DNA from: Desulfocapsa sp. | GTDB taxonomy: Bacteria; Desulfobacterota; Desulfobulbia; Desulfobulbales; Desulfocapsaceae | NCBI GenBank assembly: GCA_029935315.1 | Contig: JAOZKN010000009.1 | Location: forward strand, 1-40,826 | Direction of reading: 5' to 3' | DNA: 40,826 bases | In this document: positions 3,051 through 30,918 of the stretch, piece after piece | Layout: the number at the start of each line of letters is the position of its first letter | Position numbering within the stretch: position 1 is the first letter of the stretch | Position numbers and translations under genes: made by a program | The notes under the pieces: model-generated | What the model was told of the DNA's origin: nothing | What the model saw: the letters and a program-made list of their open reading frames with translations, nothing else | The model's database searches: none

Positions 3051-5081
3051 TTACTGAAGGCTAAGCAGGTGGGGGATGGCTTCGTTCAGGGTATCAACGT
3101 AAACCAGTTCCAGTTGGCCGCTAACATCGTCACTGAATGAGGCAACATCTTCCTGGTTTTGTGCAGGCAGAACAACCTTGGTGCAGCCGGTGCGGACGGC
3201 AGCCAGGAGTTTTTCACGGACCCCACCCACCGGCAGCACCTTGCCGGTTAAGGTCATCTCACCGGTCAGCGAGACGGTACGGCGTACCGGGCAATCGGTG
3301 AGCAGGGAAATCAATGCAATAGCAATGGCCATACCGGCAGAGGGCCCATCTTTTGAAACCGCACCTGCAGGCAGATGGATATGGATATCGGAGTGATCGT
3401 AAAAGTCAGGAGCGATGCCAAGCTGTTCAGTATTGCTTCTGATATAACTGAGAGCTGTCTGGGCTGACTCCCGCAGTACTTCTCCCAGTGATCCGGTGAG
3501 AATGAGATTGGTGTTTCCCCGCATCTTCAGGGCTTCAATAAACATGATTCCACCGCCAAACCGGGTCCAGACCAGACTGGTAACGACCCCTGTTGTATCT
3601 TCGCCTTCGGCTGCTTCCTGTCGATACCTGCGCGGGCCAAGCAGTGAGGTGATTGCCGTCTCGTCTATATCGGGCAGGGATTTTGACTTATTCTGGAGAA
3701 CCTGGAGGGCGAGTTTACGGCAAATGTTTCCAATTTCCCGACTGAGCCCACGCACTCCTGATTCTCTGGTATATTCTACGATAAGTTTTGCAAAGGCTTT
3801 ATCTGTGATCTGTGGCTTGATATCACTCAAGCCATTGGCGGCTACCTGTTTAGGCAGAAGATGCTTTTGGGAAATAACCAGTTTTTCTTCTAAGGAATAA
3901 CTGGAGAAATCGATTATCTCCAGTCGATCCAATAAAGGGCCTGGCAGTTTACTGATGTCATTTGCCGTGGCAATAAAAAGGACGCTGGAAAGATCAAAGG
4001 GAAGATCAAGGAAATGATCGTTAAAGCTCCCGTTCTGCTCCGGATCAAGGACTTCCAGGAGAACAGAGGCCGGATCCCCGCGAAAATCCTGGCCAATCTT
4101 ATCGATCTCATCCAACATAATACAGGGATTGCGCACTCCGGCACGCTTGATTTCACTAATGATACGGCCCGGCATGGCACCAACATAGGTTCTTCGATGC
4201 CCCCGGATTTCAGCTTCGTCACGCAATCCAGCCATGGAGACCCGAATAAATTCCCGGCCTAAAGAAGTCGCCACAGATTTTCCTATTGAGGTCTTTCCAG
4301 TACCCGGAGGACCTGCAAAGCAGAGCACCGGTCCCTGGCTGATTTGCAGTTTCTTCTGTTTGTGGAGAATTTCCTCCACAGTCTCTTTGAGTTGGTCGAG
4401 CTGAACCGGTTTGGAGAGATAGTGGGTTGCACCCTTGCGCATGGCATCCACAGCATTGGCCACTGTTGCGTATCCGGTGACCATGATCACACTGGTTTCT
4501 GGAGAGGCTTTGCCGACCTTGTCGATCAGGGTGAGTCCATCCATCTTATCCATCTTCAGATCAGTGATCATCACATCAAAATGATCACTCTCTTCAACCT
4601 GTTGCAGGGCTTCTACACCATTGGAGGCAACCTGTACCGTATGACCCAGGCCCTCAAAGTAGATTCTAAGATTATTGCGGGCAACTTCCTCGTCATCAAC
4701 AATGAGTATTCTGGATTTTTGCTGAATTTTTAGACTCTTTGCCGCAAGGTATTCAAGAATTCGTGTCTTGACCGCCTCAAGTCCGTGATGGTGTGAGGCC
4801 ATAATGGTTTCAGCACGCTTGAGATCAAGCTTGTCTCTGGTTTCCTGAAACCACGGCATGGAGAGGAGCAGTTCGATATAGTTTACACCTATGGAGAATT
4901 CAGCAACAATTGGATCAATTTTCTGCAGGCGTCCCATTTCTGTTGCTACCTGACGGGAAACATAGAGTGGCAGGTCAGTATCTGCCACCCTGGCTTTCAG
5001 GTCATCAAGCTGCCGGGAACCATTCGTTTCTTCTCTTGCTGCGTTTATTGGTTTGCTTTCGCTTTTAGAAAAAAGACTCAT
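3051..5081 (-). CDS. Lon-type protease with an inserted receiver domain (REC-Lon)
   Basis: A 676-residue predicted ATP-dependent serine protease of the Lon family with a two-component receiver domain inside it. Order: short coiled N-terminal linker (1-120); receiver (123 to about 240) with acidic pair D129/D130, phospho-acceptor D174 in VMITDLKM, T202 and K224; AAA+ module with Walker A GPPGTGKTS (257-265) and Walker B IMLDEIDKIG; Lon protease domain with catalytic S581 (KDGPSAG) and K624 (VREK). The LON N-terminal substrate-binding domain is absent. Compared with the canonical Lon at 19222, the receiver is inserted exactly between the helix ending EYLA and the GPVLCFAGPPG strand leading into Walker A. 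All residues needed for phosphorylation, ATP hydrolysis and proteolysis are present. The start overlaps the stop of the upstream HTH gene as ATGA. I infer proteolysis gated by phosphorylation; substrates are unknown. Confidence 0.95.
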   Translation of the reverse strand: MSLFSKSESKPINAAREETNGSRQLDDLKARVADTDLPLYVSRQVATEMGRLQKIDPIVAEFSIGVNYIELLLSMPWFQETRDKLDLKRAETIMASHHHGLEAVKTRILEYLAAKSLKIQQKSRILIVDDEEVARNNLRIYFEGLGHTVQVASNGVEALQQVEESDHFDVMITDLKMDKMDGLTLIDKVGKASPETSVIMVTGYATVANAVDAMRKGATHYLSKPVQLDQLKETVEEILHKQKKLQISQGPVLCFAGPPGTGKTSIGKSVATSLGREFIRVSMAGLRDEAEIRGHRRTYVGAMPGRIISEIKRAGVRNPCIMLDEIDKIGQDFRGDPASVLLEVLDPEQNGSFNDHFLDLPFDLSSVLFIATANDISKLPGPLLDRLEIIDFSSYSLEEKLVISQKHLLPKQVAANGLSDIKPQITDKAFAKLIVEYTRESGVRGLSREIGNICRKLALQVLQNKSKSLPDIDETAITSLLGPRRYRQEAAEGEDTTGVVTSLVWTRFGGGIMFIEALKMRGNTNLILTGSLGEVLRESAQTALSYIRSNTEQLGIAPDFYDHSDIHIHLPAGAVSKDGPSAGMAIAIALISLLTDCPVRRTVSLTGEMTLTGKVLPVGGVREKLLAAVRTGCTKVVLPAQNQEDVASFSDDVSGQLELVYVDTLNEAIPHLLSLQ

Positions 5082-22662: not shown

Positions 22663-23880
22663 TCAGCTTGTCTGTGCACCTGTTTTATTTCGCTTGAGAA
22701 TTTTCAGGAAGTTTTTCACCAGATAGGGGTTGTAACGAGCCCCGTTATCCTTGAGCAGCATTTCACATATACGCGGCTCTGCACTGGGTTCACGGTACGA
22801 TCTGCTGCAGCGCATGGCGTCGTAGGTGTCTGCGATGGCAATCATCTGGCTGACGATATTTGTTGTCCAGGTTTTGCCGATATTCGGATAGCCGCCACCT
22901 CCATAACGAATATGATGTTCAAGGGCTGCCAGAACCGCCAGCTTTGGGGCGTCATCAATGGTGAGCAGGTAGGCTGCCCCTTTCACTGCATGTCCCATGA
23001 TGGCTTTCTGCTCTTCCTTACTGAGTGTTTCTTTTTTGTTTAACAGTTCTTCCGGGATAAATGTCTTCCCAATGTCATACAGTGTCGCGGCAATACCTAT
23101 TTCATGAAGGTGTTGATCTGTAAATCCCAGGGATTCGGCCTGTGCCAGTGTTAAAATACATACGTTTATACTGTGGGTGAAAGTGTATTCGTCACCGTCT
23201 TTAAGAGGCGTCAGGATGGAGAGCGGGTTCAGGCTCTTTGAAAAAAACGTAATAAAAGAAGACATGGTCTCTTGTACACCGTGAATTTCGAAGCCCTGTT
23301 TTTTGCGTACGGAAACGTAGAGCTCCTGAGCCATGCGCAACTGCTTTTCGGACAGAGATTTTAGTTTTGCTTCGACGGCAAGGGTTTGATCGCTGTTGCT
23401 TGCGGCCCCTTCCAGGGGATCCATTGATATGGGGGCAGCAGCGTCCTGCTGTTTGTCTTCTTTGAGGCCGAGTATCCCGCTGGAGATTCCGGGGCCGTTG
23501 TAGACCTCTGTTTTTCCGGGGCTGGCAAGGTCTGTGATAAATTTGTGCAGTTCTTTTAGCGTGACACCCTGCTTAAAGACTATATGGCTGATGTCTTTCT
23601 GTTGGAGAACAGTGGTAAAGAGTGCAAAATGTGCGGCCTCTTCTGCGCGGACAGCTTTATTGTTTATAATAATATCATCGTCAATGATGAGGAGAGTAAG
23701 TGTCTGAATAGTACGCAGTATCTTCTTGAGGTCCGTATATGCCTGAGCGATCATCTTCCTGGTTCGCTGGTTTTCTATGGTATACAGATGGCAGTTGCTG
23801 ATGCTGATCCGGAGCAGGAAAAGGGTATGGAATATCTGATCTCGTAGCTGTTTCTCTCTGTTTGCTTTTCCCTGAATCAT
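22663..23880 (-). CDS. HD-GYP-type protein with degenerate HD motif
   Basis: A 405-residue protein. The N-terminal domain (about 10-130) is shared with the upstream neighbour; a linker follows; the C-terminal half is an HD-GYP domain of the c-di-GMP phosphodiesterase type. The metal-binding HD dyad reads Y268-D269 (ATLYDIGK rather than LHDIGK), while other ligands (MGHAVKGAAYL, EHHIRYGGGGYP, IADTYDAM) remain. Activity is therefore doubtful or altered. The ATG at 23880 overlaps the upstream stop codon as ATGA; an in-frame ATG at 23925 would add 15 residues. It converges on mltG with only 6 bp between. Confidence 0.85.
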   Translation of the reverse strand: MIQGKANREKQLRDQIFHTLFLLRISISNCHLYTIENQRTRKMIAQAYTDLKKILRTIQTLTLLIIDDDIIINNKAVRAEEAAHFALFTTVLQQKDISHIVFKQGVTLKELHKFITDLASPGKTEVYNGPGISSGILGLKEDKQQDAAAPISMDPLEGAASNSDQTLAVEAKLKSLSEKQLRMAQELYVSVRKKQGFEIHGVQETMSSFITFFSKSLNPLSILTPLKDGDEYTFTHSINVCILTLAQAESLGFTDQHLHEIGIAATLYDIGKTFIPEELLNKKETLSKEEQKAIMGHAVKGAAYLLTIDDAPKLAVLAALEHHIRYGGGGYPNIGKTWTTNIVSQMIAIADTYDAMRCSRSYREPSAEPRICEMLLKDNGARYNPYLVKNFLKILKRNKTGAQTS

Positions 23881-26057
23881 TTTTTTATCTTTCTTCTCTG
23901 TTGTGAGTTGAGAATTGTGCTGCATATGGTGACAGTTTTTTCATCCTTTGTTTTACTGCCCTTGAGAAGGAGGCGTCTGCTGTCTTCGGGATGATAATCT
24001 TTTAATGAATAGAAGATGAGTCGTTTCATATCGGCTATTTCCTGACGCAGGAACAACCAATTGCCAAAGGCGAGTTTTTCCAGATGCGGCAATGCCTCGG
24101 GATCTCCGATATGCCCGAGTACCTGAATAAGCTGCCTGTTTTTTTCGATGGCTGCCCGGGTGACCAGTTTATGCTCAAGGAGTGCAGTAAGGGTTGTGAC
24201 ACAGGCTTTGGGACGGTAGGTGTCACAAAGCTCTAAGGCCATGTTTACCGTTGGCTCATTGTTTGCCTGCAGCATTGCATTTAAGGTGGCAGTTGCCTGC
24301 TGGTCGTGACTAGGGAGGAGAAGGCCTAAGACCCTGTTGCGAATGTCACTGTTCTCGTGATCGAGCAAGGGGTGGAGCAGGCGCACGGTTCCCTGTATGC
24401 CAAGATATTCAAGGAGCAGAAGCAGTTTGAGGGCATGAACGGGAGTCGCTTTCCTCAACAGGGGGAATAGTCTGGTGAGTGTCTCAACACGTGATGCTTT
24501 GAGGATTATCACCATGGGATCGTTTGCAGGTATTTTTGTTTTTATACAGTATATTGTCAGGATAGAATCAAGGGTTTCCGGGCCGAGCAGCAAGAGAAAA
24601 TCAATACCATCCTTTCTTTCTGTTGCCGTGGCATCCGGGAGGATGGAAAAAATGTAATCGATAAAATCCGGGGATGCGAGATCGCGGATACATTCCTGGG
24701 CAATGCCTTTCTGGATATCTGTTCTCTTGTCAGCGGCCTGTTGTTGAAGCTGCCTGACGATGGTTTGTAAAAGATCGAAGGCACCGTAATCGGGAAGCAA
24801 AAGGCTTAGTTCCATAAGCTTTCGCGCAAGTTTCTTGTATTCCTGGTCCTGGATGGTGGTGCCCATGAATATAAGTATGGCCTGGATAATTTTTTTGTCC
24901 AGTTGTGTCTCTTTCATGCTTTCCAGATGCTCTCCGAGGGGGAAGTCGGCAGGGGCAGTGGAGGGTGCGGAAGAGTGGCGGGACAGATGTTGCAGGCTGT
25001 CTTGATATGCAGGGCTCACTTGTTGGGTATAATTCTTCTCTTTGAGCAGGTTGCCCGTTTCGCATTGTCTGGTAATGGATGCTGGTGACGGCCTCTCTGT
25101 GGCAAAGTTCATGCCGGAGAGTTTGTGGATAAGATTGAGTAGTGCAGGTGATATTGTTGTCTGCTCCCTGTTGACTTGTTGCAGCATGTCGAGCACCACA
25201 GAATCAGAAAATTCGTCCAGTATTTTTTTCGTATTGCCTGTTCTCAGGTTCTTGTCGCACTGCTTGAGTGTTGTGTCGAAAAATTGCTTCCGGAGATCAG
25301 GGTTCAGGGATGAGAGGATCTGGCTGAGTTCCTGTCCGCCAAAAGAAGTTGCTGACTGCTGTTGTGTTGTCTGCTGCAGGAGCTGATCGAGCAAGCCGGA
25401 AAACTGTTGCAGGATCTGGGGGTGATTGCCCATCTCTTTATTGATTGTTGCTGCCAGAGTTTTTGGTGCTATTGGTTTGGTCTGGGGATCAGTCGTTGTG
25501 GCTCCGGCAAAATGTCCCAGCGTGCCGCCGGCCAGCTTTTGGGCAAAGGTCATCCAGGTCAGGGGAGCACCACTGTCCTCTCCAGTAACATTCCTGGCAA
25601 AGTAGGTGTAATCAATGAATTCCACCTGGAGATGGGGGATATTCAGGGAAGAGATGTCCTGGAGTCTATTTTCTCCGATGCCCTGCTGTTCAGGTAAAAT
25701 CCCAACCGTTTTCAGAAACAAAAAAAGAGAATGCTGGGTGATGCCCTCGGAAAATGAGATGGAAGCGATTTCGTGGCGGGTTAGAATTTTTGCAAAAGCA
25801 GCGCAGGCTTTGGAACCTTCTCCGACGGGAGAACCTGCGTAGGTGAACGTATCTCTGGCGATGCCAAAGCGTATGTTGTTCTTTTTGATAAGGGCTCGCG
25901 TCAGAGACTGATGGGCAGCTGCAAGTTTGGTTTGCAGCAGGTTGTGACCAGGTGGGTAGATTTGTATGTTTTTGAGTGCCAGATGAAAACGTGACAGAAT
26001 CTCAGTGTATTCCTGAGTTTGCTGTGCAGTCTTGCGGCTTGCAGTACTTGGGCTCAC
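23877..26057 (-). CDS. Large HEAT-like repeat protein, partner of the HD-GYP protein
   Basis: A protein of 726 residues from a GTG at 26057 (GGAG upstream), or 761 from an ATG at 26162 with a poor ribosome site. The N-terminal region (about 15-140) resembles that of the downstream HD-GYP protein (LALKNIQIYPPGHNLLQTKL, then FSEGITQHSLFLFLKTV). A Gln-rich middle follows, and the C-terminal third is helical with HEAT-like units such as ARLLHPLLDHE-type pairs and GDPEALPHLEKLAFGNW. No catalytic motif is visible. Four-base overlap (ATGA) with the HD-GYP gene indicates joint translation. Probably a cytoplasmic scaffold in signalling; function unknown. Confidence 0.72.
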   Translation of the reverse strand: MSPSTASRKTAQQTQEYTEILSRFHLALKNIQIYPPGHNLLQTKLAAAHQSLTRALIKKNNIRFGIARDTFTYAGSPVGEGSKACAAFAKILTRHEIASISFSEGITQHSLFLFLKTVGILPEQQGIGENRLQDISSLNIPHLQVEFIDYTYFARNVTGEDSGAPLTWMTFAQKLAGGTLGHFAGATTTDPQTKPIAPKTLAATINKEMGNHPQILQQFSGLLDQLLQQTTQQQSATSFGGQELSQILSSLNPDLRKQFFDTTLKQCDKNLRTGNTKKILDEFSDSVVLDMLQQVNREQTTISPALLNLIHKLSGMNFATERPSPASITRQCETGNLLKEKNYTQQVSPAYQDSLQHLSRHSSAPSTAPADFPLGEHLESMKETQLDKKIIQAILIFMGTTIQDQEYKKLARKLMELSLLLPDYGAFDLLQTIVRQLQQQAADKRTDIQKGIAQECIRDLASPDFIDYIFSILPDATATERKDGIDFLLLLGPETLDSILTIYCIKTKIPANDPMVIILKASRVETLTRLFPLLRKATPVHALKLLLLLEYLGIQGTVRLLHPLLDHENSDIRNRVLGLLLPSHDQQATATLNAMLQANNEPTVNMALELCDTYRPKACVTTLTALLEHKLVTRAAIEKNRQLIQVLGHIGDPEALPHLEKLAFGNWLFLRQEIADMKRLIFYSLKDYHPEDSRRLLLKGSKTKDEKTVTICSTILNSQQRRKIKK

Positions 26058-26347
26058 AGGGAGAACTCCACGTAGTATTATTCTGACAAACAGGGTAGAA
26101 GATTGCGCGAGCCATTCACGGTCAAAGCGGGTCGTCAATCCGTTTTCGAAGTATTGCAACATCTAACCGGAAAATACCTGAACTGATGGTAAATTGTACC
26201 AGCGTTTATTGGAAAATGGAAGGTCATTTCTGAAAACTCCGGATGGGGCTGTGCCATTTAGCAGAAGCAGTGTCATTGCTTGGATAAGAGCAGAGAATAT
26301 GGTAGAAGACTGTATTACTTCCTCTTTCATTTTTTTGTGAAATTTTT

Positions 26348-27985
26348 ATGAAAATAGCATTACTCCAGATCAATCCGATAATCGGCGATTTTTCCCATAA
26401 CAGTCAAAAGATCCTTGATGCCTGTGAGAAGGCTGCGGCTGCAGGCTGCAGGCTGATTATTTTTCCGGAACTTGTGCTTTCCGGCTATCCTCCCCATGAT
26501 CTTCTGGAACATTCTGCATTCCTCCGAGCTCACGATCAGGCCCTCGCTGCCCTTTGTGACAAATTGCCGGCCATTGATGTTTTGCTGGGTTGCATCGAAC
26601 AACGACAGACAGAAGGTAGTGGCAAGAAACTTTATAACAGCGCTTTTTTTATTCAGAATGGAACGGTTATGCGCAGGATTCGCAAACAGTTGCTGCCCAC
26701 CTATGATGTTTTTGATGAAAAACGCTGGTTTGAACCGGGGACACAGTCGGAAGTCCTTGAGTGGAAAGGAATTCGCTTTGGTATCACCATCTGTGAGGAT
26801 ATATGGCACTCTGAAATAGGAGAATACGACAGAGATCCGGTGGCTGACTTTTTTATGGACGGGAAACAAATTGACTGCCTGATAAATATTTCAGCATCTC
26901 CTTTTCAGCGAGATAAAGAATCCCTTCGTCACCGTTTATTTCAAACACTTTGCAGACGCTATACTGTTCCCCTGCTTTACGTGAATCAGGTTGGGGGGCA
27001 GGATTCTCTCCTTTTTGACGGGCGCAGTCTGGTGATGGGGAATGACGGGGAAATACAGGCAAAAGCCAGGGGCTTTGCTGAAGATATGCTGCTTGTGGAT
27101 ACGTCGAACTGGAGCGGAGTCATAAACAGTGCGCTGAAGGAAGACGGGGTAGCAGCCGTCTATGATGCCCTGGTTATGGGTATTCATGATTATGTGCGCA
27201 AGTGTGGCTTTCGTTCCGTTGTTCTTGGGCTTTCCGGTGGCATAGACTCGGCGCTGACTGCAGCGCTGGCCGTGGAGGCACTGGGGGCAGAAAATGTTCT
27301 TGGCGTGGCCTTGCCTTCACCGTACAGCTCCAGTGATTCCATGGAAGATGCCAGGGGGCTGGCAAATAATTTAGGTTTTGCATTTGAGGTGCTCCCCATA
27401 AGTGATCTGTTTGCAGGGTTTCAGGAAACACTGGAGCCCCTGTTTGGCGATATGCCGGAAGATATCACCGAGCAGAATCTGCAGGCACGTATCCGTGGTA
27501 ACCTGCTGATGGCACTGTCCAACAAGTTTGGTCACCTTCTTCTTTCCACCGGCAATAAAAGTGAAATGGCAGTGGGCTACTGCACGCTGTATGGTGATAT
27601 GAATGGCGGGCTGGCTGTTATTTCAGATGTCCCCAAGCAACTGGTGTACGAGCTGTCACGTTATATCAACCGGAACGAAGAAATCATTCCCCTGCGAACA
27701 ATCACCAAGGCTCCCACGGCAGAATTGAAGCCCGGACAGTGTGATCAGGATGATCTGCCCGCATATGAAATTCTTGATCAGATCCTTGAGCTGCATCTGG
27801 AAGAGCACCTTGGGGTACAGGAAATTACTGCGCGGGGCTTTGCAGAAGAGTTGGTCGCTGATGTACTGCGCAGGGTGCGTTTAAATGAGTATAAGCGAAA
27901 GCAGGCGCCCATGGGCTTGAAAGTGACCAGTAAAGCCTTTGGCTACGGACGCAGATATCCCAACGTGCAGAATTTCCAGAATTAG
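26348..27985 (+). CDS. nadE: Glutamine-dependent NAD+ synthetase
   Basis: A 545-residue fused enzyme that amidates nicotinic acid adenine dinucleotide to NAD+ using glutamine. The N-terminal nitrilase-type amidase domain (1 to about 250) has the Glu-Lys-Cys triad in FPELVLSGYP, RKQLLPTYDVFDE and ITICEDIW. The C-terminal synthetase domain contains the PP-loop GLSGGIDSALTAALA and LSTGNKSEMAVGY. Length is typical of the two-domain bacterial form. The ribosome-binding site is weak. The cytochrome gene begins 10 bp after its stop. Confidence 0.95.
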   Translation: MKIALLQINPIIGDFSHNSQKILDACEKAAAAGCRLIIFPELVLSGYPPHDLLEHSAFLRAHDQALAALCDKLPAIDVLLGCIEQRQTEGSGKKLYNSAFFIQNGTVMRRIRKQLLPTYDVFDEKRWFEPGTQSEVLEWKGIRFGITICEDIWHSEIGEYDRDPVADFFMDGKQIDCLINISASPFQRDKESLRHRLFQTLCRRYTVPLLYVNQVGGQDSLLFDGRSLVMGNDGEIQAKARGFAEDMLLVDTSNWSGVINSALKEDGVAAVYDALVMGIHDYVRKCGFRSVVLGLSGGIDSALTAALAVEALGAENVLGVALPSPYSSSDSMEDARGLANNLGFAFEVLPISDLFAGFQETLEPLFGDMPEDITEQNLQARIRGNLLMALSNKFGHLLLSTGNKSEMAVGYCTLYGDMNGGLAVISDVPKQLVYELSRYINRNEEIIPLRTITKAPTAELKPGQCDQDDLPAYEILDQILELHLEEHLGVQEITARGFAEELVADVLRRVRLNEYKRKQAPMGLKVTSKAFGYGRRYPNVQNFQN

Positions 27986-27995
27986 TATATGGCAG

Positions 27996-29753
27996 ATGAT
28001 GAAGCGAATAAATAAAAAAAATAAAAAGTCTGTCTTCCTGCTGCTGCTTATTCTTGTCGCTCTTCTGGCCATTGGTCGTGAACTGTCCATTAAACGGCCG
28101 GAACAGGTGTATGTTACCACCAGCGGCCGTATCGACATGTGTTTGTCCTGCCATACAAAGGAGAAACTTGATCCCGCCCATGATCCACGGGTGATAGGCT
28201 GTGCCTCTTGTCATCTTGGTGATCCCCTGGCCCTTGACGAGGAGACGGCTCATAAGGGCATGGTTATTAATCCCGGAGACTTGCGAGTTGTTGAGAAAAC
28301 CTGCGGTATTGAAGGCTGTCATCCAACGGATGTGAAAAAAGTGATGAATTCTCTTATGGCAACGAACAGGGGGATTATCGGAACCCTTCTTTACTACTGG
28401 GGGGAGACAGACTCCCAGGATACGGATCTCACCGTGAAGCAGCTTATGGACAGTGGAGAGACTTCTCTGGCCCTTGATTATTTCAGGAAACTCTGTGCCA
28501 CCTGTCACCTCTGGAAACAGAAGAATGATTTACCGGGTGCCCCTGATTTTTTCAATGAGAAGGGCGGGGGCTGTTCTGCCTGTCATTATCTCCTGCCGGA
28601 AGGAGACGAACGTCATGCTGTTGCCGGTTTTGACGATAATACAAAAGCTGAGAAGAAAAAGAGCCATCCCTTAATTATCAAGAAAGTGAGTGAGGAGAAC
28701 TGTATTCGCTGCCATAATCGTTCCGGGCGTATTGGTATCTCCTATACAGGTGTTTTTGAATCTGAGGGCTATGGAACTCCCTATGAACACGGGGGGATGA
28801 GCAGTAAGCAATTGCCGGGGCAGCGTTTTTATCTGGAGATTGCAGAAGATATTCATCATCTAAAAGAGATGGCCTGTATCGATTGTCATACCCGGAACGA
28901 GATCATGGGAGATGGTACCAGTTATGCGCATTATGAAGAGCAGCTGGAAATCAGTTGTGAAATGTGTCATTCTGCGAATCCGGGTACAAGCCGAAAGGGT
29001 GATGTCGTCACTAATATTTCTGAAAAGAACGGGAAATTTGTCATGACAGGACGGGTGAATGATAAAATTTACCCCCTGGCCACCCCTAAAAAAGATGTCT
29101 GCGAGATTGATTTTCATAAACGTGTTACCTGCGAGGCCTGTCACTCCACCTGGGTTCCGCAATGTTACGGTTGTCACGCAAAAAGGGATGCCTCGGAAAA
29201 GCATCTGGATAAACTGACTCTTACGGAAACAGCAGGTATGTGGGAAGAAGGGCGCTCCTATATCCGTTATGAAAAACCAATGCTTGCCCTGTGGAAAGAT
29301 GAAGTCGTGATCGTGACCCCGGGGTGTCAGGATATTGTGACCCTGATTGATGAAGAGGGGACAGTCGCAGGCGGCTTTAACCGTTTCACTATGGCAGCAA
29401 TCAATCCCCATACCACCCAGGCCAAGGGGCGAAGCTGCAGTGATTGTCATCAATCCACAAAGACAGTGGGGCTTGGAGAAGGCACTGTGTCCGTTGATGC
29501 AGACGGGAACTGGTCTTTTGCCTCCCTTGACCAGGGGGTGGAGACTCTTGTGGGGACGACGGTAGCTTTTGATGCCTTTGTGAATATCGATGGAGAGGCG
29601 TTGCAGCATGGTTCAAGACCGGACTTACGCCCCTTTAATAAAGAGGAGTTACAGCGCATTTTGCGTGTGGGGCTGTGTGTGGGGTGTCATGATACGTATG
29701 ATGATCCCATCTGGAAGGATTATAATCAGAAAATGGAATGTTCACGGCGCTAA
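27996..29753 (+). CDS. Membrane-anchored multiheme cytochrome c (12 candidate heme sites)
   Basis: A 585-residue protein with a short basic N-terminus, one hydrophobic helix (SVFLLLLILVALLAIG) acting as anchor or uncleaved signal, and a periplasmic part with eleven CXXCH motifs (such as CLSCH, CASCH, CATCH, CSACH, CIRCH, CIDCH, CEMCH, CEACH, CYGCH, CSDCH, CVGCH) plus one CX4CH (CGIEGCH). It is thus a candidate 11- or 12-heme electron carrier or reductase; additional histidines could be distal ligands. I do not recognise a characterised family. The ATG at 27996 (or next codon) is preferred; the open frame extends into nadE. Confidence 0.88.
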   Translation: MMKRINKKNKKSVFLLLLILVALLAIGRELSIKRPEQVYVTTSGRIDMCLSCHTKEKLDPAHDPRVIGCASCHLGDPLALDEETAHKGMVINPGDLRVVEKTCGIEGCHPTDVKKVMNSLMATNRGIIGTLLYYWGETDSQDTDLTVKQLMDSGETSLALDYFRKLCATCHLWKQKNDLPGAPDFFNEKGGGCSACHYLLPEGDERHAVAGFDDNTKAEKKKSHPLIIKKVSEENCIRCHNRSGRIGISYTGVFESEGYGTPYEHGGMSSKQLPGQRFYLEIAEDIHHLKEMACIDCHTRNEIMGDGTSYAHYEEQLEISCEMCHSANPGTSRKGDVVTNISEKNGKFVMTGRVNDKIYPLATPKKDVCEIDFHKRVTCEACHSTWVPQCYGCHAKRDASEKHLDKLTLTETAGMWEEGRSYIRYEKPMLALWKDEVVIVTPGCQDIVTLIDEEGTVAGGFNRFTMAAINPHTTQAKGRSCSDCHQSTKTVGLGEGTVSVDADGNWSFASLDQGVETLVGTTVAFDAFVNIDGEALQHGSRPDLRPFNKEELQRILRVGLCVGCHDTYDDPIWKDYNQKMECSRR

Positions 29754-29835
29754 AGAATCTGAGAAAAGCAGCTTGTACAACTGGTTTGTCGTTGCTGCCT
29801 TGTTGTGATCTGGAAAAAAATGCAAAGGGGATGTG

Positions 29836-30918
29836 ATGCAGAAGAAAAGATTTCGTGATGCGATTTTTACGGTAACAGAAGAGCATCGCTGTCCTATCTA
29901 TAATATTGGTGACGAATTAAAGGTCGAAAATATTTGTGCTGTGGTTCCCGAGGCGAAGTCTGTGTGCATGGTTCTTGTGGAAACGCTTATTGATATAACG
30001 ATAAAGAAAAGCAGCTTTACGAAGTTCGGTGCAAAAAATACTGCTTTTGATTGTGGTGGCTGCCAGGGGAAAATCACCTTTCAGTATAAACAGGAAAAAG
30101 GCTTTGCCACCGTGCAGATGAAACTCCTGTCAGAGGTCGAAAATCGAAGACGGAAACAGCATCTGGATAAATTTTTTGGCGTGCTGCGTGAGTTTCCGCT
30201 TTTTGAGTCACTGGACGATGATGCACTGCTCGATCTGGCCGATCTCCTTGAGCATAAAAAATACTCAAAAGATAAGGTCGTCCTTAAACAGGGAGATCCG
30301 GGAACGCATCTTTTTGTTCTTCTCTCCGGGAGTGTTGCTGTTGTCGCGGATGATGGTGAGCGGCTTGCTACGATGAGTCAGGGGGAGATATTTGGTGAAA
30401 TGAGCCTGCTCTCCGGTGAACCGGTTTCCTGCTCCATTCATTCCCTTACTGAAACAGAAGCTGCTCTTTTGAGCGTGAAGAATTTCAAATTTGTATTAAA
30501 AAAACACCCGGTACTGCAGCTTTTTCTTTTGAAGATGCTGGTGGATCGGGCACAGGCCATGGCGTTGCGCTCAGGTAATATTACTTCTGGTATGTCGGGG
30601 GAACTCAGTGAAATCGGTATGGTAGAGCTTTTTCAATTGATTAACTCCAGCCAGAAAACAGGGGTTATTGAGTTGTTACTCTCCGATGCAAAGGGTGGCG
30701 TTCTCTTTCGTGAAGGGGAAATTATTTATGCCAGTTATAAAAAACTTCGAAACAAGGAGGCACTTTTTGCCTTGCTGGCAAAGAAAGACGGACATTTCAC
30801 CTACACCAAAGGGATTCCGGCTGCTGCGGAAGCGACTCCGGTAATGGGTGGCTTTATGGGACTTATCATGGAAGCCGTACAGTTTATTGATGAGCAGGAG
30901 CACGGCGATCAGGAGTAG
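29836..30918 (+). CDS. Cyclic nucleotide-binding domain protein with DUF4388
   Basis: A 360-residue cytoplasmic protein. The N-terminal domain (1-95) has three dispersed cysteines and a CGGC motif (FDCGGCQGKITF) and is not recognised with certainty. A cNMP-binding domain follows (about 115-235: PLFESLDDDALLDLADLL, GTHLFVLLSGSVAVV, GEIFGEMSLLSGEPVS). The C-terminal part (about 250-340: GELSEIGMVELFQLINSSQKTGVIEL, FREGEIIYA) is a DUF4388/PATAN-type domain found in deltaproteobacterial signalling proteins. There is no DNA-binding domain. AAGGGG lies 5 bases before this ATG. It follows the cytochrome gene and may be co-transcribed. Confidence 0.87.
   Translation: MQKKRFRDAIFTVTEEHRCPIYNIGDELKVENICAVVPEAKSVCMVLVETLIDITIKKSSFTKFGAKNTAFDCGGCQGKITFQYKQEKGFATVQMKLLSEVENRRRKQHLDKFFGVLREFPLFESLDDDALLDLADLLEHKKYSKDKVVLKQGDPGTHLFVLLSGSVAVVADDGERLATMSQGEIFGEMSLLSGEPVSCSIHSLTETEAALLSVKNFKFVLKKHPVLQLFLLKMLVDRAQAMALRSGNITSGMSGELSEIGMVELFQLINSSQKTGVIELLLSDAKGGVLFREGEIIYASYKKLRNKEALFALLAKKDGHFTYTKGIPAAAEATPVMGGFMGLIMEAVQFIDEQEHGDQE

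Follow-up and report, generated by a model that had tools for sequence, protein, structure and literature searches.

HD-GYP proteins without an intact HD dyad are already known, PA2572, DvhD and VC1087 among them. In PmGH from Persephonella marina (PDB 4mcw) the exchange H221A, which removes the first histidine of the dyad, essentially abolished activity; the H-site lies close to H221, a crystal monomer with iron in the G-site only had captured unhydrolysed c-di-GMP, and proteins with Tyr or Phe at the position of E185 form a subgroup predicted to be binuclear (PMC4159591). The same source describes Bd1817 from Bdellovibrio bacteriovorus (PDB 3tm8) as unconventional for an HD-GYP protein and as having no phosphodiesterase activity. 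The HD-GYP motif is given as HHExxDGxxGYP in PMC3774798.

PA2572 from Pseudomonas aeruginosa, a YN-GYP protein, was reported not to hydrolyse c-di-GMP but to have a regulatory role (PMC3774798, PMC3411652), and VC1087 and VCA0895 from Vibrio cholerae, likewise without an intact HD motif, to show no activity either in vivo or in vitro (PMC4212101). According to the latter paper ECA3548, which also has no intact dyad, is reported inactive, and VCA0681 is active despite having no residue that matches D308 of PmGH. DvhD from the sulfate reducer Desulfovibrio vulgaris (PDB 9rbz, 9rc0), also without an intact dyad, binds c-di-GMP, the phosphate of which is contacted by K582, and is reported to show no metal density at the site and no hydrolysis (PMC13090378). 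Here we describe an HD-GYP protein from Desulfocapsa sp. in which only the first histidine of the dyad is exchanged, for tyrosine. Its gene lies in the window, by which we mean the whole stretch of 40,826 nucleotides that was analysed.

The gene and the active site of its product

The gene (22663..23880, minus strand) encodes a protein of 405 amino acids that belongs to the family by its match to Pfam HD_5 (PF13487; 1e-18, 68.1 bits against a curated cut-off of 27.2) and also matches HD (PF01966; 2.2e-08). An N-terminal domain (residues 1-135, 23476..23880, minus strand; hhalign, AlphaFold), to which we return below, precedes the HD-GYP domain (residues approximately 225-400, 22681..23208, minus strand). 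Because the start codon (ATG, 23880-23878) shares the sequence ATGA with the stop codon of the preceding gene and a Met occurs at about this position in several orthologs, this start is likelier than the in-frame ATG further upstream (23925-23923), which would give 420 amino acids and place the site at Y283/D284; the numbering Y268/D269 fits the shorter form.

The original prediction of an HD-GYP protein lacking the first His of the HD dyad was correct: in the motif ATLYDIGK on the minus strand Y268 (TAT, 23077..23079) takes the place of H221 of PmGH and is followed by the retained dyad aspartate D269 (GAC, 23074..23076; D222 of PmGH). The dyad is thus Tyr-Asp, as it is in six orthologs. The interval assigned to it, 23077-23085, does contain the Tyr codon; it translates as T266-L267-Y268 and leaves the Asp codon just outside.

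The remaining residues of the site were assigned by alignment to PmGH, their roles being taken from PMC4159591. Retained as metal ligands by homology are H236 (PmGH H189; 23173..23175), H297 (H250; 22990..22992), H322-H323 (H276-H277; 22912..22917) and D351 (D305; 22828..22830), all on the minus strand, as are the codons that follow. Also retained are D230 (D183, second shell; 23191..23193), K272 (K225; 23065..23067), the GYP motif at residues 330-332 (22885..22893) and R360 (R314 of PmGH, R650 of DvhD; 22801..22803), by homology a c-di-GMP contact; D354 corresponds to D308, Y331 to Y285 and Y232 to E185 of PmGH. Sequence and alignment therefore bear out the earlier statement that HH, GYP and the distal Asp (D351) had been kept. 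PmGH has eight metal ligands, of which seven are found in the relatives with an HD dyad and six in the window protein, since E185 is replaced by Tyr (as in the HD relatives) and H221 by Tyr. Y232 at the position of E185 fits the Y/F subgroup predicted to hold two metals.

Compared with HHExxDGxxGYP the window protein reads HHIRYGGGGYP, in which HH and GYP agree and the full motif is not present: Ile replaces the Glu of HHE, and Gly replaces the Asp of DGxGYP. The position of this Glu (22909-22911 in the window) is occupied by Ile, Leu or Met in 103 and by Glu in three of 113 family members (defined by more than 150 bits) and by Glu in 14 of 20 more distant HD-GYP proteins, both counts being among the matches listed.

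An AlphaFold model of the whole protein (mean pLDDT 87) predicts the HD-GYP fold, its structural neighbours (VIA-align) being Bd1817 (3tmb_B, 221 residues; Z 24.8), DvhD with c-di-GMP (19.4), PmGH (19.2) and PA4781 (18.6); a common fold does not show a common function. When the side chains of DvhD that contact c-di-GMP were mapped by hand, six of the seven that could be placed were found to be kept in the window protein, namely as Y232, L286, Y331, M356, R360 and Y362 (Phe in L016), the exception being K582 of DvhD, which is Q291; E668 of DvhD was not placeable. These contacts say nothing specific about the proteins with tyrosine, because the HD relatives keep them too.

Single origin of the tyrosine

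The alignment of orthologs, by which the original prediction was to be checked, showed the same tyrosine in other genomes of the genus. An ortholog (E 1e-40 or better) is present in 17 of 20 genus genomes, G003, G014 and G017 being without one, and position 268 is readable in 16, since one ortholog (L030) is a fragment that does not include it; the residue is Tyr in seven (L001, L009, L010, L011, L012, L016, L023; hereafter YD) and His in nine. The Tyr codon is TAT in six genomes and TAC in one. An apparent stop codon in the ortholog match L018 turned out to be the gene's own end.

In a maximum-likelihood tree of 30 sequences the seven YD rows form one clade with a support of 100/99, which became 100/98 when the trait column was taken out together with the rows L024 (long) and L023 (partial). 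His was therefore changed to Tyr once, and since the clade is nested among HD rows the direction was from His to Tyr. As judged from the tree, a single origin of the tyrosine in the ancestor of one Desulfocapsa-group clade is shown.

Among the matches listed, the 113 family members (distinct HD-GYP open reading frames) comprise 106 with HD and seven with YD and the 20 more distant HD-GYP frames are all HD, counts to be read with caution as to sampling, since the search that yielded L069-L148 used two patterns, one of which restricted position 268 to His or Tyr. Within the same listed matches the equivalents of H189, D222, K225, H250, H276 and H277 are present in 113 of 113 members and those of D305, D308 and R314 in all 112 readable ones; the D183 equivalent is Asp in 105 of 113 and the E185 equivalent is Tyr in 112 of 113. 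Outside the genus a strong ortholog (E <1e-100) was found only in G037 when up to seven candidates per genome were scored in 242 genomes of the order. The genome of the window contains seven further HD-GYP matches to the window protein, all of them HD.

DNA patterns, which detect a given motif and spacing only, were also used. Y-D-I-G-K followed at 120-150 nt by H-H occurs in 10 of 242 order genomes, seven of which are the YD clade. The wider YD pattern (I, V or M after YD) was found in 29 of 395 phylum genomes, and the HD form of the wider pattern in 227 of 242 order genomes; the comparison within the order is uneven, the YD pattern being slightly narrower and the HD pattern wider. Seven of the 37 loci obtained with the two YD patterns fit the HD-GYP profile (E 0.01) and all seven are the YD clade, so that among these loci YD was not found elsewhere in HD-GYP proteins. 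In G010 an open frame of 66 amino acids (G010:C11:30005-30181, plus strand), 69% identical to residues 326-384 of the HD-GYP protein (420-aa numbering), lies about 12 kb from the intact YD gene of that genome and looks like a partial duplicate.

The alignment of the HD domain has 175 columns, its 23 HD rows (nine from the genus, 14 from outside) being without gaps. Thirty-six columns are invariant in the HD rows; among them position 268 alone is altered in all seven YD rows, 33 of the other 35 are unaltered in all seven, and two differ in one sequence each. All 13 active-site positions are invariant in the YD clade, whereas of all 175 columns 92 are (hypergeometric 1.5e-4), and the remaining metal ligands together with the K225/D183 pair (E185 apart) are the same in 7/7 YD sequences. 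In the HD region dN/dS was 0.02-0.08 for the four YD pairs from which a ratio was obtained (L010/L011, L010/L023, L011/L023, L009/L012; L001-L009 formed no ratio) and 0.05-0.10 for six HD pairs, values that are rough because dS was saturated for some pairs (NG86 dS >2 for some YD pairs). That position 268 changed alone and the rest of the site was kept therefore indicates a specific change in a site under selection rather than decay; by these sequence comparisons the YD site is shown to be still under purifying selection.

No residue is common to the YD clade and the nine HD members of the genus at positions 268, 273, 277, 291, 296, 311, 358 and 393. Residue 273, directly after the site Lys, has changed from I, V or M (L or M in the outgroups) to T, G or S in the YD clade. 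Residue 291, which in the mapping by hand falls on K582 of DvhD, is Arg in seven of the nine HD genus members and Gln in the YD clade, an exchange that could mean altered binding. Because all these changes share one branch, they are not independent evidence of compensation.

The HEAT partner and the neighbourhood

Directly upstream on the same strand lies a gene (23877..26162, minus strand) for a protein of 761 amino acids with an N-terminal domain as in the HD-GYP protein and HEAT-type repeats (HEAT_2, 1.9e-07); the two reading frames overlap by 4 nt at its stop codon and the start codon of the HD-GYP gene. BLASTP of the HD-GYP protein against its HEAT neighbour gave nothing significant (best E 3.5), and the comparison of the two N-terminal regions by hhalign gave a probability of 99.4 and an E value of 1.1e-21 over 116 columns (HD-domain control 0.35). 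Because the profiles match, the two proteins carry the same N-terminal domain. Modelled alone (AlphaFold, mean pLDDT 93), this domain had no Foldseek match in the PDB at E <=0.001 (best 0.32) and a VIA-align Z of at most 6.1, which does not imply a new fold.

The HEAT partner lies beside the HD-GYP gene in 11 of the 12 other genus genomes searched (of 19) and in five of the six YD ones; in the one exception, G007, the HD-GYP gene is cut by the start of the contig. Among the matches listed, a HEAT homolog is adjacent, by the rule of the script, in 43 of the 53 named homologs for which 600 nt or more of upstream sequence is available. Two of the ten misses (L080 and L084) do have a HEAT homolog, the open frame having been drawn too long, and in L091 the HD-GYP gene, which stands behind a HEAT homolog, is split over two frames; the remaining misses are four Gemmatimonadetes, one Methylomirabilota, one unnamed bacterium and L115 (Desulfobacteraceae). 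A two-gene module of HEAT and HD-GYP proteins with a common N-terminal domain thus recurs from Desulfocapsa to Geobacter-type and Nitrospirota genomes (L069-L117), and each Geobacter-type and Nitrospirota pair that was read has the HD dyad. A limited open-access search (HEAT repeat/HD-GYP/Geobacter; Desulfocapsa/HD-GYP) found no literature on a HEAT-paired HD-GYP subfamily, for which the HEAT protein with the common N-terminal domain is a candidate output protein.

The gene pair stands tail to tail with mltG, which is preceded by lon. The genome has 11 GGDEF and four PilZ matches, and c-di-GMP signalling in the host is plausible.

Three other genes of the window deserve mention. The first (3051-5081, minus strand) encodes a protein of 676 amino acids with receiver, AAA, Lon lid and Lon protease domains in one chain, which makes it a Lon-like protease that carries its own response-regulator domain. 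The second (27939-29753, plus strand) encodes a multihaem cytochrome resembling ExtM of selenite/tellurite reduction operons, with a score (290.5 bits) that is far under the 800-bit cut-off. In the product of the third (29833-30918, plus strand) a cyclic-nucleotide-binding domain and DUF4388 are joined.

Receptor or enzyme with an altered metal site

The original prediction had left the choice between a c-di-GMP-binding, non-hydrolysing receptor and an enzyme with altered metal site, and sequence alone does not divide the two. The receptor has precedents, since PA2572, DvhD, VC1087 and VCA0895, none with an intact dyad, are reported as inactive. The altered metal site stays alive because, unlike in DvhD, the one precedent compared with it residue by residue, one ligand was lost and the others were kept under strong purifying selection.

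We propose, giving it about an even chance of being right, that the protein is a switch that binds c-di-GMP with little or no hydrolysis and has kept part of its metal centre. From the comparisons made here we infer a protein of normal fold that would hold metal through the remaining six of its relatives' seven ligands and whose usual cleft would bind c-di-GMP or a similar cyclic dinucleotide; hydrolysis would be weak or absent after H268Y, and the bound ligand would control a switch whose output would pass via the N-terminal domain and contact with the HEAT partner from the overlapping gene. Against this proposal it can be said that H236, D351, K272 and D230 are all kept, so that the site looks like a working catalytic centre, and that, by analogy with DvhD, a protein that only binds could do without some of the metal ligands.

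The main rival, which we regard as possible if rather unlikely, is an active phosphodiesterase with an altered metal centre, in which Y268 would ligate the metal or its place would be taken by water, with a changed rate, metal or redox preference and with c-di-GMP or another cyclic dinucleotide as substrate. The seven YD sequences agree in every other ligand and in the K225/D183 pair, their dN/dS is as low as that of the HD relatives, and positions including 273 (from bulky aliphatic to T, G or S) and 291 were altered together with H268Y, although these changes, lying on one branch, may be unrelated to the site. The activity of VCA0681 in spite of its missing match to D308 speaks in favour of this reading; the near complete inactivity of PmGH H221A and the reported inactivity of the natural proteins without an intact dyad (PA2572, DvhD, VC1087, VCA0895 and ECA3548) speak against it (PMC4212101, PMC4159591, PMC13090378, PMC3774798 and PMC3411652).

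With respect to the exchange itself, activity may survive H268Y, Tyr being a possible metal ligand. In other phosphohydrolases, such as the purple acid phosphatases, Tyr can ligate metal. That Y268 forms a metal-phenolate bond, and that the phosphodiesterase was not turned off but retuned in metal choice, redox response or substrate by the change of CAY to TAY together with those at 273 and 291, we consider improbable. The HD and YD sister proteins in one genus make this idea directly testable.

Equally doubtful is a metal-free receptor of the DvhD kind, in which the loss of the single His would empty the metal site and binding would depend on Y331, R360 and their neighbours only. DvhD itself, which is reported to bind c-di-GMP with neither metal density nor hydrolysis (PMC13090378), and the retention here of six of the seven contacts that could be placed are consistent with it; DvhD has, however, lost most ligands, whereas here six remain, invariant over seven diverged sequences, which would be unexpected without metal. 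Relaxed or neutral loss, by which an enzyme no longer needed in the clade would be decaying with Tyr as the first sign, is very improbable: the window copy does have the longest end branch of the clade (0.55-0.58), and two of the seven YD sequences have no Asp in DGxGYP (Gly in the window, Ala in L011; Asn is common there in the outgroups), but the YD pairs have the low dN/dS given above, 33 of 35 other family-invariant columns are unaltered in all seven, and the partner gene is kept. A sequencing or assembly error, conceivable in a draft genome of 257 contigs, is ruled out by the same Tyr in seven separate genomes with two different codons, and we give it practically no weight.

Under the name YD-GYP no paper was found in the open-access literature searched, and new, as far as searched, is a Tyr-Asp version in which one ligand is lost and the rest are fixed, in one clade of a genus that otherwise has His. 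Within this genus, closely related species differ in whether this gene of the pair encodes HD or YD, and the site is otherwise kept. Such matched natural pairs bear on the question whether removing one ligand suffices to convert a c-di-GMP hydrolase to a receptor, or whether Tyr can take over from His.

PmGH has the same fold, its E185 and H221 both being Tyr in the window protein. Bd1817, the highest structural match, is without the GYP Tyr; the window protein has an intact GYP and is without the dyad His. PA2572 resembles the window protein in having Tyr first in the dyad and GYP kept. To judge by its label YN, the Asp is also altered in PA2572, which moreover has an N-terminal receiver, whereas the window protein keeps the Asp and has no receiver domain by Pfam.

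With DvhD, likewise from a sulfate reducer, the window protein has in common the fold, the Tyr of GYP, the Arg and the Tyr by which DvhD holds c-di-GMP, and a Tyr where PmGH has E185. In DvhD, SQ stands in place of HD and MN in place of HH, and the distal Asp is missing as well (PMC13090378), whereas the window protein has lost one of its relatives' seven ligands. DvhD carries periplasmic dCache and cytoplasmic PAS domains, in place of which the window protein has an unnamed N-terminal domain and a HEAT partner.
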